Assembly: GCA_003246895.1 (NCBI GenBank)
Contig: QKCL01000036.1
Span: 1-64,000, forward strand
DNA: 64,000 nt
Reading direction: 5' to 3'
Origin: Spirochaetota bacterium
GTDB lineage: Bacteria; Spirochaetota; UBA4802; UBA5550
Every line of letters begins with the position of its first letter. The stretch's first letter is position 1. A program made the position numbers and the translations under genes. Below the pieces are notes generated by a model. It saw nothing but the letters and a program-made list of their open reading frames with translations, had not been told where the DNA came from and made no database searches. This document shows positions 14,849-19,290 of the stretch, in pieces.

Positions 14849-15712
14849 CTATCTGAATGTCATGTCTCCTGTAATATATATATCCCCCGATACAATTGCA
14901 TCGTCATGATTATCTATTGTCACATAAATTTTTCCTGTTCGACCCTGTCTGTTCCCTTGTAGAATTGTTGTATTGCTGTTTACCGCTATGCGTCCGTGTT
15001 TTAGTAAAAATGCACCTGCAGGGCCGGCGGCGCTTCCTGTTGCAATATCTTCGACAAGTCCTGAGTTGTCCCATGTCCTTGCAGTGAGCCTTTCCGTATC
15101 AAGCACATATACAAATTTTGCCCCGTGCCTTTGAAGTCTCTCTTCAAAATTACCAACGGTTATGCCTGCGGATTCTATTCCGCTTTTTACAGGCACAATG
15201 AGGTATGGCAGGCCCGTAGTGACAACTTCACATGGAAGATTTGACATGTCATCCTGATGGAGGTTAAGGCAGGAGAGTATCTCCTCTGTTTCGGCCGTAT
15301 CCAGTGTTTTTATAAACTTAGCCTTGCCCTGATTCATGGATGCACTGAAATAATCATCTTTTCTGCATGTCCGGACTTTAAAAATCCCTGAATCAAGTTC
15401 TATGTGCCAGGTTTCACTATTAGTCTTTCCGTATCTGTCGTGGAGTACTGCCCCAAGGCCGAGAACGGGATGACCTGCAAAGGGGAGTTCCTCTTCAACT
15501 GTGAATATACGGGCCCTGACATGGTTATTTTCCGGAATACCCATGAGAAAGATAGATTCAAAATGCCTCAGTTCATTTGTGAGAAGAAGCATCTCATCCG
15601 ATGTCAGTTCATGAAAATCAGAAAAAACAGAAAGGCTGTTCCCGTTGATTTTTTCCGGTGCAAAAACGTCAGCCAGTGTTACTTTTATTCCCGATATTTT
15701 GCTGTTGTTCAT
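14849..15712 (-). CDS. PhzF family isomerase/epimerase-like protein
   Basis: 287 residues, normal for the PhzF family (diaminopimelate-epimerase fold in two halves). Glu52 in RHFESIFL occupies the catalytic glutamate position. The motifs LPFAGHPVLG (about 75-84) and DIATGSAAGPAGAFL (in the second half) are family hallmarks. PhzF proper isomerises an anthranilate derivative in phenazine synthesis, but no phenazine gene is here, and most members act on unknown small metabolites. ATG 15712 has AAGGGA upstream. It is divergent from the proVWX operon, separated by a 560-base region. Confidence 0.9.
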   Translation of the reverse strand: MNNSKISGIKVTLADVFAPEKINGNSLSVFSDFHELTSDEMLLLTNELRHFESIFLMGIPENNHVRARIFTVEEELPFAGHPVLGLGAVLHDRYGKTNSETWHIELDSGIFKVRTCRKDDYFSASMNQGKAKFIKTLDTAETEEILSCLNLHQDDMSNLPCEVVTTGLPYLIVPVKSGIESAGITVGNFEERLQRHGAKFVYVLDTERLTARTWDNSGLVEDIATGSAAGPAGAFLLKHGRIAVNSNTTILQGNRQGRTGKIYVTIDNHDDAIVSGDIYITGDMTFR

Positions 15713-15926: not shown

Positions 15927-15961
15927 CCCTGATGGACTCTGAGGGGTCGAGAGCCTTTTTT
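15927..15961 (+). terminator. Terminator-like hairpin in the phzF-proV region
   Basis: CCCCT at 15927-15931 pairs with AGGGG at 15942-15946, and outer GGC/GCC pairing is possible around 15914 and 15952. It is followed by a run of seven or more T up to 15962. No gene ends here on the plus strand, so it would end a small transcript from an unseen promoter, or it is fortuitous. Confidence 0.4.
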
Positions 15962-15963
15962 TG

Positions 15964-15999
15964 CACCATAACGCATAACAAGTGTTATGCGTTATGGTG
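15964..15999. promoter_or_regulatory. Perfect 17+17 bp palindrome, candidate operator
   Basis: CACCATAACGCATAACA at 15964-15980 is followed after two bases (AG) by its exact reverse complement at 15983-15999. A 2-base loop is too tight for an RNA hairpin at full pairing, and no T-run follows, so a protein-binding site is more likely than a terminator. It ends eight bases before the -35 element of the proVWX promoter, a position suited to an activator or repressor responding to osmotic stress (inference). Confidence 0.6.
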
Positions 16000-16007
16000 T
16001 TTATCCC

Positions 16008-16035
16008 TTGACAATACTGGTGTAATGGTTATAAA
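16008..16035 (+). promoter_or_regulatory. Near-consensus sigma-70 promoter for proVWX
   Basis: TTGACA at 16008-16013 and TATAAA at 16030-16035 with a 16-base spacer. Expected transcription start is near 16042, giving a leader of about 230 bases before proV. Confidence 0.65.
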
Positions 16036-16273
16036 AAAGATAGATGAAGTTTTATAAGGGGATTTCTGAAGAACATTGAAAGGATTCTCCCTTGTGGGTG
16101 CAGGCAGTATAACATGAAAATAATTCTAAATGCCGCTTCAATGGTCACTCATGAGTTTACTTTAAAAATTTCGTTCTTATTTTGTAGAGTTCCTGCGTCC
16201 TAAGAGTGTTCTTTATTTTTTCAAAAGCTTATAAAACTTTATCCTGATTAACTGAATATAAAAACAGAGGATT

Positions 16274-17503
16274 ATGATAAAGCTTAAAATTCAAAATCTA
16301 TACAAGATCTTCGGCCCCCATCCGCAGCGGGCCATGAAAATGATTAATTCCGGGAAGAGCAAGAAGGAAATTCTTGATAAGACCGGATGTGCCGTAGGTG
16401 TAGCCGGGGTTTCATTTGAGGTTAATGAAGGAGAGATCCTTGTCATCATGGGACTTTCCGGCAGCGGCAAGTCCACACTTGTGAGATGCATAAACCGGCT
16501 CTTTGAACCTACCTCGGGTAAAATAACCGTCGATAACGATGAAATAACATCCATGGATAAAAAGAGTCTCAGAGAGGTTCGCAGAAATAAATTTGCAATG
16601 GTCTTCCAGCGGTTCGCACTTCTTCCGCACAGAACAGTACTTGAAAATGTTTTCTTCGGCCTGGAAATACAGTCTGCTGACAAAGACGACATGAAGCAAA
16701 GATCCATGGAGGCACTTGATCTCGTGGGGTTAAAGGGATGGGAGGATTACTATCCCGCACAGCTTTCCGGCGGCATGCAGCAGAGAGTAGGCCTTGCCAG
16801 GGCTCTTGCTGTTGAGCCGGATATTCTTCTTATGGATGAAGCCTTCAGTGCCCTGGATCCTCTTATTCGTTCAGACCTGCAGGATGAACTTCTTTCCCTT
16901 CAGAGCCGCGTACAGAAAACAATAATTTTCATTACCCATGACCTGGATGAGGCACTTAAGATAGGAGACAGAATTGTCCTTATGAAAGACGGGAAGGTCG
17001 TTCAGATAGGGACACCTGAAGAGATACTGCTTAATCCTGAAACAGAATATGTTGAGCGGTTTGTTGAAAATGTCAATATGACACGAATACTTACTGCAAA
17101 GGATGTAATGGTCAGGCCTGTTAAGGTTACTCACCCCAAGGACGGTCCCCGTTCTGCACTTCGTGCAATGAAGGAGAAGGGGAGTTCAAGCTGCTGCGTA
17201 CAGGACAGAAACAGAAAATTTCTTGGAATCGTCAGATCTGAACAGGCGAGGAAACTTGTTGATGAAGGCTGCACCAGCCTTGAGTCAGTAATCGAGCCAT
17301 ATGAAAAGAACAAGGTCTCTCCCGATACTCCGCTTCAGGAAATTCTGCCTATCATTATTGACGCATCCTATCCTGTTGCCGTAGTGGATGAAAGCAATGT
17401 ACTGCTTGGTGTAATTGTAACTGGTTCTGTTCTCGCCGGGCTCGTGGAAGGCGGGGTTGACAGCAATGCACATGCAACAGACTGGAATAACGGGGGAGTG
17501 TAA
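16274..17503 (+). CDS. proV: Glycine betaine/proline ABC importer ATPase
   Basis: 409 residues of the ProV/OpuAA type. Residues about 1-270 are the ATPase: the characteristic insertion KMINSGKSKKEILDKTG before the first strand, Walker A GLSGSGKST, Q-loop in FQRFALLPH, signature LSGGMQQRVGLARAL, and Walker B LLMDEAFSALDP. Residues about 275-395 form a pair of CBS domains, which in OpuA sense ionic strength or nucleotides and gate transport. The start ATG 16274 follows AGAGGA. ProW begins four bases after the stop and proX follows, so the three form one operon for uptake of compatible solutes. Confidence 0.95.
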   Translation: MIKLKIQNLYKIFGPHPQRAMKMINSGKSKKEILDKTGCAVGVAGVSFEVNEGEILVIMGLSGSGKSTLVRCINRLFEPTSGKITVDNDEITSMDKKSLREVRRNKFAMVFQRFALLPHRTVLENVFFGLEIQSADKDDMKQRSMEALDLVGLKGWEDYYPAQLSGGMQQRVGLARALAVEPDILLMDEAFSALDPLIRSDLQDELLSLQSRVQKTIIFITHDLDEALKIGDRIVLMKDGKVVQIGTPEEILLNPETEYVERFVENVNMTRILTAKDVMVRPVKVTHPKDGPRSALRAMKEKGSSSCCVQDRNRKFLGIVRSEQARKLVDEGCTSLESVIEPYEKNKVSPDTPLQEILPIIIDASYPVAVVDESNVLLGVIVTGSVLAGLVEGGVDSNAHATDWNNGGV

Positions 17504-17507
17504 CTGA

Positions 17508-18410
17508 ATGCTTAATATATTAAATAATTTCATTCCAATCTTGAATTCATCTTCTGATACAGGCATGGGCGTCCCGAAAGTTCCTCTTGGGGATTTGATA
17601 GAAAGTATAATAAACTATCTTACAGATAATTTTTCATCTGTAACAAAATCTGTCTCAGTCGTAATGAGAAGCGGAATAGAATCACTTAACTCTGTCATAG
17701 ATATGGTTCATCCTGTCCTGTTTATTATAGTTGTTACGCTTCTTGTACTCTATATTTCCAGGAAAAGAATTGCACTGTTTACGGCAATTGGTCTCCTCTT
17801 TATATGGAATCTGGGGCTCTGGTATGAAACAACAAATACCCTGACCCTTGTAATCATATCAACATTGCTGTCACTTATTGTGGGTGTTCCACTCGGTATC
17901 GCGGCAGCGCTTAACAAAAGATTTAACAGAATTATTGTGCCTGTCCTGGATTTTATGCAGACCATGCCTGCCTTTGTCTATCTAATTCCGGCCATACCCT
18001 TTTTCGGACTTGGAGCAGTTTCAGCTGTTTTTACAACTGTAATATTTGCAATGCCTCCTACAATAAGGCTTACATGTCTCGGCATAGAACAGGTTCCCGT
18101 TGAATTGACAGAGGCTGCTGAATCATTTGGAGCCACAGGGGCCCAGACTCTGTTGAAGGTGCAGCTGCCTGTTGCAATGCCCACAGTAATGGCCGGAATA
18201 AATCAGACGATCATGCTGTCGCTTTCCATGGTTGTCATTGCAGCGATGATTGGTGCCGGCGGGCTTGGGGCTGAAGTCTGGAAGGCTATACAGAGACTGA
18301 AACCGGGCATGGGCTTTGAAGCGGGTATTGCAGTTGTTATCCTGGCCATAATACTGGACAGGATAACAAAAAATATAAGTTTCAGAAAGAACGAAAAAAA
18401 TAAATTCTAA
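17508..18410 (+). CDS. proW: Glycine betaine/proline ABC importer permease
   Basis: 300 residues. The N-terminal about 60 residues are amphipathic and precede six to seven membrane segments. The ABC-permease EAA loop reads EAAESFGATGAQTLLKVQLP, and MQTMPAFVYLIPAIPFFG is typical of ProW/OpuAB. It forms the channel of the importer with ProV and receives substrate from ProX. It starts four bases after proV and ends ten bases before proX. Confidence 0.95.
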   Translation: MLNILNNFIPILNSSSDTGMGVPKVPLGDLIESIINYLTDNFSSVTKSVSVVMRSGIESLNSVIDMVHPVLFIIVVTLLVLYISRKRIALFTAIGLLFIWNLGLWYETTNTLTLVIISTLLSLIVGVPLGIAAALNKRFNRIIVPVLDFMQTMPAFVYLIPAIPFFGLGAVSAVFTTVIFAMPPTIRLTCLGIEQVPVELTEAAESFGATGAQTLLKVQLPVAMPTVMAGINQTIMLSLSMVVIAAMIGAGGLGAEVWKAIQRLKPGMGFEAGIAVVILAIILDRITKNISFRKNEKNKF

Positions 18411-18420
18411 GGAGAAGATT

Positions 18421-19290
18421 ATGCTCATAAGGATATTTAAAATATTTTCTGTGCTTTTGATTTCGTCTTTTTTCCTCTTTTCATGCGGGAAAAATGAAGC
18501 GGATAAAAGTTCAAAGGGAAAGATAACTCTTGCATATGTTGAGTGGTCATCAGAGGTGGCAAGTACAAATGTTGTAAAGGCTGTACTGCAGGAGAAGCTG
18601 GGTTATACGGTTGACATGAAGGCAGTTACTGCGCCGGCCATGTGGCAGGCTGTTGCAACGGGTGATGCCGATGCACTGGTTGCGGCATGGCTGCCTACCA
18701 CACACGGAAGTTATCTCAAAAAAGTTGAAAAGGATGTTGATGTGCTCGGTAAAAACCTCATCGGCACAAGGATAGGACTCGTCGTTCCTGAATATGTGAC
18801 TATTTCATCCGTTGCCGAACTTGAGGCAAATGCTGAAAAGTTCAATAAGGAAATTGTCGGTATAGATCCCGGGGCAGGGCTCATGAGTGCGACAGAAAAG
18901 GCAATGAAAGTATACGGTATCAGGTCCATGAAACTTGTTGCCGGAAGCGGAGCCACAATGACAGCAGCTCTGTCTTCAGCCTGTAAGAACAAGGAATGGA
19001 TTGTCGTTACCGGATGGACTCCTCACTGGAAATTTGCCAGAATGCAGCTGAAGTACCTGAAAGACCCGAAAAATGTATTCGGCAGGGAGGAGTATATAAG
19101 CACAATAGCCAGAAAGGGCCTTGAAAAGGATTACCCGGACGTATATGCGTTTCTCAAAAAATTCAGATGGACTCCTGCCGATATGCAGAAGGTCATGGTA
19201 TGGAACAGGGAAGAGGGAGCAGATCCATATAAAAATGCAGTAAGGTGGATCAGGGAAAATCAATCCAGAGTAAGTTCATGGTTAAAATGA
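18421..19290 (+). CDS. proX: Glycine betaine-type substrate-binding lipoprotein
   Basis: 289 residues with a lipoprotein signal (lipobox-like FLFSC, Cys22 expected to be lipidated). The mature protein is of the OpuAC/ProX family: WSSEVASTN near the start, APAMWQAVATGDADALVAAWLP and VTGWTPHWKFARM supply tryptophans of the sort that form the aromatic cage around quaternary ammonium groups. It delivers betaine or related osmolytes to ProVW. ATG 18421 follows AAGGAGAAG. A strong terminator lies 22 bases after the stop. Confidence 0.93.
   Translation: MLIRIFKIFSVLLISSFFLFSCGKNEADKSSKGKITLAYVEWSSEVASTNVVKAVLQEKLGYTVDMKAVTAPAMWQAVATGDADALVAAWLPTTHGSYLKKVEKDVDVLGKNLIGTRIGLVVPEYVTISSVAELEANAEKFNKEIVGIDPGAGLMSATEKAMKVYGIRSMKLVAGSGATMTAALSSACKNKEWIVVTGWTPHWKFARMQLKYLKDPKNVFGREEYISTIARKGLEKDYPDVYAFLKKFRWTPADMQKVMVWNREEGADPYKNAVRWIRENQSRVSSWLK

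Follow-up and report, generated by a model that had tools for sequence, protein, structure and literature searches.

NarL acts from 7-2-7 inverted repeats that lie just upstream of -35 boxes or abut them (PMC7419079), CosR directly represses proVWX in Vibrio (review PMC7876524), and BusR is a c-di-AMP-dependent repressor of osmolyte uptake with a bipartite operator whose motifs are 22 bp apart (PMC8517857). Here, we analyzed a window (the whole stretch of 64,000 nucleotides) from a Spirochaetota bacterium, in which a perfect palindrome adjoins the likely promoter of a proVWX transporter locus (Table 1). A literature search returned no paper joining proVWX, a palindromic operator and glycine betaine. 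We consider that this palindrome is probably a double-stranded DNA operator of a homodimeric transcription factor controlling proVWX, and we compared its anatomy, its copy number and its setting with those of related loci.

Table 1. Features of the proVWX control region and its flanking genes in the window.
Feature	Position	Strand	Basis
Candidate operator, perfect 17+2+17 palindrome	15964..15999	.	Inverted-repeat search and sequence
-35 hexamer TTGACA, likely proVWX promoter	16008..16013	+	Sequence, promoter scoring
-10 hexamer TATAAA, 16-base spacer	16030..16035	+	Sequence, promoter scoring; start near 16042 inferred
5' leader, possibly structured	16043..16243	+	Ends 16043-16058 and 16228-16243 complementary over 16 nt (94%)
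proV, ATP-binding subunit	16274..17503	+	TIGR01186, 451.4 bits (cut-off 326.6)
proW/choW-like permease	17508..18410	+	PF00528, 92.6 bits; NCBIfam models below cut-off
proX-like substrate-binding protein (OpuAC)	18421..19290	+	PF04069, 255.9 bits; NCBIfam models below cut-off
Divergent PhzF-family gene	14849..15712	-	PF02567, TIGR00654

The palindrome, CACCATAACGCATAACA-AG-TGTTATGCGTTATGGTG, consists of two arms of 17 nt (15964-15980 and 15983-15999) that are 100% complementary and separated by 2 nt, and exactly eight bases (16000-16007) lie between it and TTGACA. An earlier sequence-only reading had claimed both the exact pairing of the arms and the 8-base distance to a TTGACA-16-TATAAA promoter, and the coordinates agree with it exactly. 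The centre reads CATAACG-CATAACA-AG-TGTTATG-CGTTATG, so that four half-sites are arranged in a 7-7-2-7-7 layout, with CATAAC at 15967 and 15974 and GTTATG at 15984 and 15991. Each arm contains a tandem 7-base repeat, CATAAC occurring twice with a 7-base spacing. The CATAAC and GTTATG hexamers are found 117 times in the contig (207,909 bases), and they cluster within 20 bases only at the palindrome. Counted from the inferred start site, the centre of the palindrome is located near -60.5. Regarding the promoter, the intergenic region was shuffled 2000 times, and 32 of the shuffles reached a score of at least 11 out of 12; one promoter scan omitted the proVWX promoter, since that scan accepts nothing but T at the final -10 position. 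The pairing ends of the leader begin where the proV transcript start is predicted, and end pairing of such quality was seen in 3 of 500 shuffles. The fold of the whole leader is unremarkable (z of -1.26, with 23 of 200 shuffles as good); the leader may or may not be structured, and the operator reading does not need it. The assignment of the downstream genes to proVWX, also made in the sequence-only reading, holds for proV, which scores above its model cut-off, but is less secure for the permease and the binding protein. The NCBIfam models for these two fall below their cut-offs and choline models score best; therefore, the transporter substrate may be either betaine or choline.

With loops of up to 10 allowed, no perfect inverted repeat in the window is as long as the palindrome; the runners-up under the same limit are a perfect repeat of 13 and a mismatched one of 15. 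A 15-base inverted repeat with one mismatch is located at 18334-18369, within the end of proW. The longest arms in 15 Markov-simulated sequences of the length of the window were 9-11, and arms of at least 17 (loop 0-10) would be expected 6e-5 times in a window and 0.003 times in the genome. Thus, the length stands far above chance, as had been proposed, and chance is not a credible source of the palindrome. Long perfect palindromes do occur elsewhere in the genome; the contig has five other perfect inverted repeats of at least 14 (22, 16, 16, 14 and 14) in its 207,909 bases. From the contig scan, 12 long inverted repeats were picked by hand (nine perfect and three mismatched, with four perfect 12-base repeats omitted) and placed heuristically, relative to reading frames of at least 100 codons. 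Several of these sit just past gene ends in terminator fashion; the palindrome alone sits between divergent genes, and a purely 5' location is the exception among the 12. A perfect 22+22 palindrome with no loop, CGGCACGGGTAGAGACGCAATG and its complement, is located at G000:C57:85010-85053 (in L175), and within three mismatches its 28-base core occurs nowhere else in its own genome.

To place the palindrome within its genome, the draft assembly (3,566,456 bases in 95 contigs, 95.72% complete) was searched for the half-site and for the full palindrome, as the sequence-only reading had suggested. The only single-arm matches with fewer than three mismatches are the two arms of the palindrome itself, and a second full palindrome within three mismatches is absent. 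The palindrome is therefore single-copy in the draft genome, and dispersal in hundreds of copies is excluded. A dispersed palindromic repeat of the REP or MITE kind is rejected, since the genome holds no second copy of either the arms or the whole, and the palindrome is not a mobile repeat. For the inner 18-mer core, the genome contains 21 sites with up to three mismatches, versus 10 for the reversed control. No other match has fewer than two mismatches, and the lone site with two lies in an attC-like hairpin; these weak core sites could count for or against the operator reading. Two hairpins of about 90 bases that resemble integron attC sites were observed at about 1505-1600 in L121 (G000:C57:80669) and at about 1430-1525 in L122 (G000:C69:19968). 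They carry ACATAACAAA..TTATGCGCTTCACTCGCT...GCGACTTCGCATAAG, and their likeness to attC sites was judged by look. Beyond this genome, the palindrome is absent, within three mismatches, from a set of 59 relatives (58 apart from this genome) and from a sample of 392 genomes of the phylum (391 apart from this one), the two sets partly overlapping. Among viral contigs, for which exact matches only were considered, the 30-mer of the palindrome has no match and the inner 18-mer occurs in seven stretches. When the 121 bases at 15940-16060 were compared with plasmids and phages by similarity, 1 and 6 records, respectively, were returned, with listed E-values of 0.3 and all outside the palindrome.

We then compared the control region with those of other proV loci. 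Two likely ProV orthologues are present in the family, with identities of 64% (G016) and 63% (G004), and both belong to other genera; the next-best match in the relatives set shows 40% identity and comes from another family of the order. For 83 other ABC-ATPase loci (the two family orthologues, the one order-level match and 80 loci from public genomes), the 700 bases preceding each locus were compared, with shorter upstream sequences for L041 (621 bases), L058 (334 bases) and L081 (5 bases). No match with fewer than nine mismatches in 28 was found upstream of these loci, and a CATAAC/GTTATG pair within 20 bases occurs at none of the 83. The footprinting that the sequence-only reading had proposed upstream of proV thus went against it: the palindrome is unconserved at all 83 other loci, the two family orthologues included. 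Aligning the three control regions at the DNA level was mostly uninformative. The palindrome may have originated recently in its lineage, because the nearest orthologues are only 63-64% identical and come from other genera.

The family orthologues have elements of their own. In each, the promoter with the best score has a spacer of 16 bases, as in the window, and both carry an inverted repeat that differs from the palindrome, TCTAATAC[C/T]TTTG[C/G]AGTATTGAC, directly at the -35 box. The two loci agree at 21 of the 23 positions of this block, which occurs once in each orthologue genome; the pattern, which was built from these two orthologues themselves, is absent from the genome of the window within three mismatches. 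Both loci (L010 and L011) have kinase and response-regulator genes upstream of proV. The response regulator of L011 comprises a receiver and a GerE domain by Pfam, and that of L010, which is interrupted by two N, was recognized by eye; from these genes and the block at the -35 box, two-component control of osmolyte uptake is likely at both loci. In the genome of the window, the L011 regulator has no close orthologue (best match 38% identity), and the loci around the two best response-regulator matches have no paired CATAAC/GTTATG half-sites. Inverted repeats above the threshold are present upstream at 14 of the 80 public loci, none with the sequence of the palindrome, and the long ones include L056 (16+16), L040 (14+14) and L055 (13+13), as well as L053 and L108 with one mismatch each. 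Since orthologues and public loci carry other repeats or regulator genes, control of proVWX apparently varies by lineage, and the palindrome seems to be either one local solution to this control or a neutral palindrome.

Because the palindrome is beyond chance, single-copy, positioned between divergent genes and located beside a good promoter, the best reading is still that of an operator placed upstream of the -35 box, as the sequence-only reading had it. In detail, the palindrome has the two-fold symmetry, the length beyond chance and the adjoining promoter expected of an operator, but among the genomes compared it is neither conserved before orthologues nor recurrent in a regulon. A single strong site per genome is also unusual for a regulator, and the presence of further long perfect palindromes in the same contig likewise counts against an operator. 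The perfect symmetry together with the tandem half-sites suggests that two dimers would bind side by side on the four half-sites. From a centre near -60.5, an activator would touch RNA polymerase from upstream. We lean very slightly towards an activator rather than a repressor, because the palindrome lies wholly upstream of the -35 box; a repressor would also suit the near-consensus promoter. No regulator gene was recognized beside proVWX, so the regulator would be encoded elsewhere in the genome. A response of the putative operator to osmolarity or betaine could be proposed from the downstream genes only. A more far-reaching scenario, which we regard as unlikely, is that proVWX of this genus came under the control of a regulator particular to the lineage. 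The two-component system of the ancestor (upstream kinase and GerE regulator, with the -35 repeat), which two other genera keep, would have been lost, and the 7-7-2-7-7 operator would have taken its place, occupied by two dimers of an osmotic regulator that has essentially no other target.

Several other explanations were weighed against a proVWX operator. The palindrome could be the remnant or target of mobile or site-specific recombination, either with a Xer/dif-like core (CGCATAA-6-TTATGCG) or as a solo leftover palindrome. The inverted CGCATAA/TTATGCG arms around six bases do resemble Xer core sites, the palindrome is lineage-specific as far as sampled, and the 22+22 palindrome of the same contig likewise has no second core copy. 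However, perfect symmetry is not usual for Xer sites, the palindrome is single-copy in the genome, and inspection by eye revealed neither a target duplication in the flanks nor a recognizable recombinase gene in the window. A chromosomal dif or terminus site is unlikely on GC skew: each of the 21 ten-kilobase bins of the contig shows positive skew, so that no terminus is seen there, although the contig ends 16 kb to the left of the palindrome. A search with a dif consensus pattern gave 68 matches versus 71 for the reversed control, which is the chance level; the best matches anywhere had two mismatches, and the site in the window is not among the matches. An origin in recombination is thus improbable. 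That the palindrome serves the divergent PhzF-family gene instead of proVWX is very unlikely, since, within the intergenic region that both genes share, it is separated by eight bases from the proV -35 box versus 251 bases from the phzF start.

Two readings rely on the ability of the palindrome to fold. In one, osmotic stress would raise negative supercoiling, and the resulting cruciform would shift promoter activity without a dedicated regulator. The single-strand hairpin is strong (-17.4 kcal/mol with DNA parameters, z of -7.5), and 16-base promoter spacers, the kind found here, are linked to supercoiling sensitivity; yet cruciform extrusion in vivo is slow for short palindromes and does not require tandem half-sites inside the arms. 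A literature search by title gave no paper on a perfect-palindrome cruciform at an osmotic or proU promoter, and we give this topology element very little weight. In the other, the palindrome would act as an RNA hairpin or terminator, either for a short RNA of the + strand or for RNAs that read across the region. Its RNA hairpin is strong (z of -5.07 and -5.46), its right side reads GGTG-TTTATC, and a bulged stem with T7 is seen by eye just before it (15932-15961). Against this, the terminator scan found none, no gene of at least 100 codons runs into it, the flanking genes diverge, and the presumed upstream RNA folds no better than shuffles (z of +0.55). No Rfam family reached its gathering score in the window, so that no known RNA family is assigned; three sub-threshold matches cover the palindrome, with E of 0.024 to 0.97 and 16.6-17.8 bits versus gathering scores of 55-89. 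An intrinsic terminator, with a GC-rich stem and a T run at a gene end, is rejected on the negative scan, the T run and the divergent flanks, and the position between divergent genes, unique among the 12 placed repeats, argues against a gene-end terminator. An RNA role for the palindrome is accordingly most improbable. The bulged stem at 15932-15961, followed by seven T on the + strand, looks terminator-like by eye; it has no gene upstream and is possibly the end of a small RNA.

If the palindrome is an operator of proVWX, it would offer a clean handle for fishing out the osmolyte-uptake regulator in a lineage without one found here, and it would represent a case of rewired control over a conserved transporter. 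The NarL heptamer consensus is TACYYMT. The palindrome resembles sites of the NarL/FixJ type (E. coli NarL) in its inner inverted heptamers, which are 2 bp apart (CATAACA-AG-TGTTATG) and lie upstream of the -35 box; the kinase and response-regulator genes upstream of both family proV orthologues are a further likeness to NarL/FixJ systems. However, CATAACA/TGTTATG does not appear to fit TACYYMT/AKRRGTA, and the palindrome adds flanking heptamers to the 7-2-7 arrangement of NarL to give 7-7-2-7-7. A setting like that of CosR/EctR1, of the MarR family, is present at L044, where a divergent MarR-family gene (by Pfam) lies upstream of proV, and similar proteins were recognized by eye in L042 and L047; these three may be CosR-like. 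In contrast, no MarR gene was recognized beside proVWX in the window, and the L044 protein as a query has no clear orthologue in the genome of the window (best match 29% over 80 residues), which thus offers no candidate for a MarR-type regulator. With BusR, the candidate operator would share osmolyte transport as the target and a multi-part site, but the 22-bp motif distance is particular to BusR. Six TrkA_C matches are present in the genome of the window; the three loci that were read by eye encode TrkA-, channel- and chloride-channel-like proteins, none BusR-like, and the remaining three, judged by frame length, belong to two frames of 470 residues and one of 663, so that no BusR-like regulator is a convincing candidate. 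In summary, the mechanism of the candidate operator would be an ordinary one, and the site would be unusual solely for its length, its perfection and its single occurrence.
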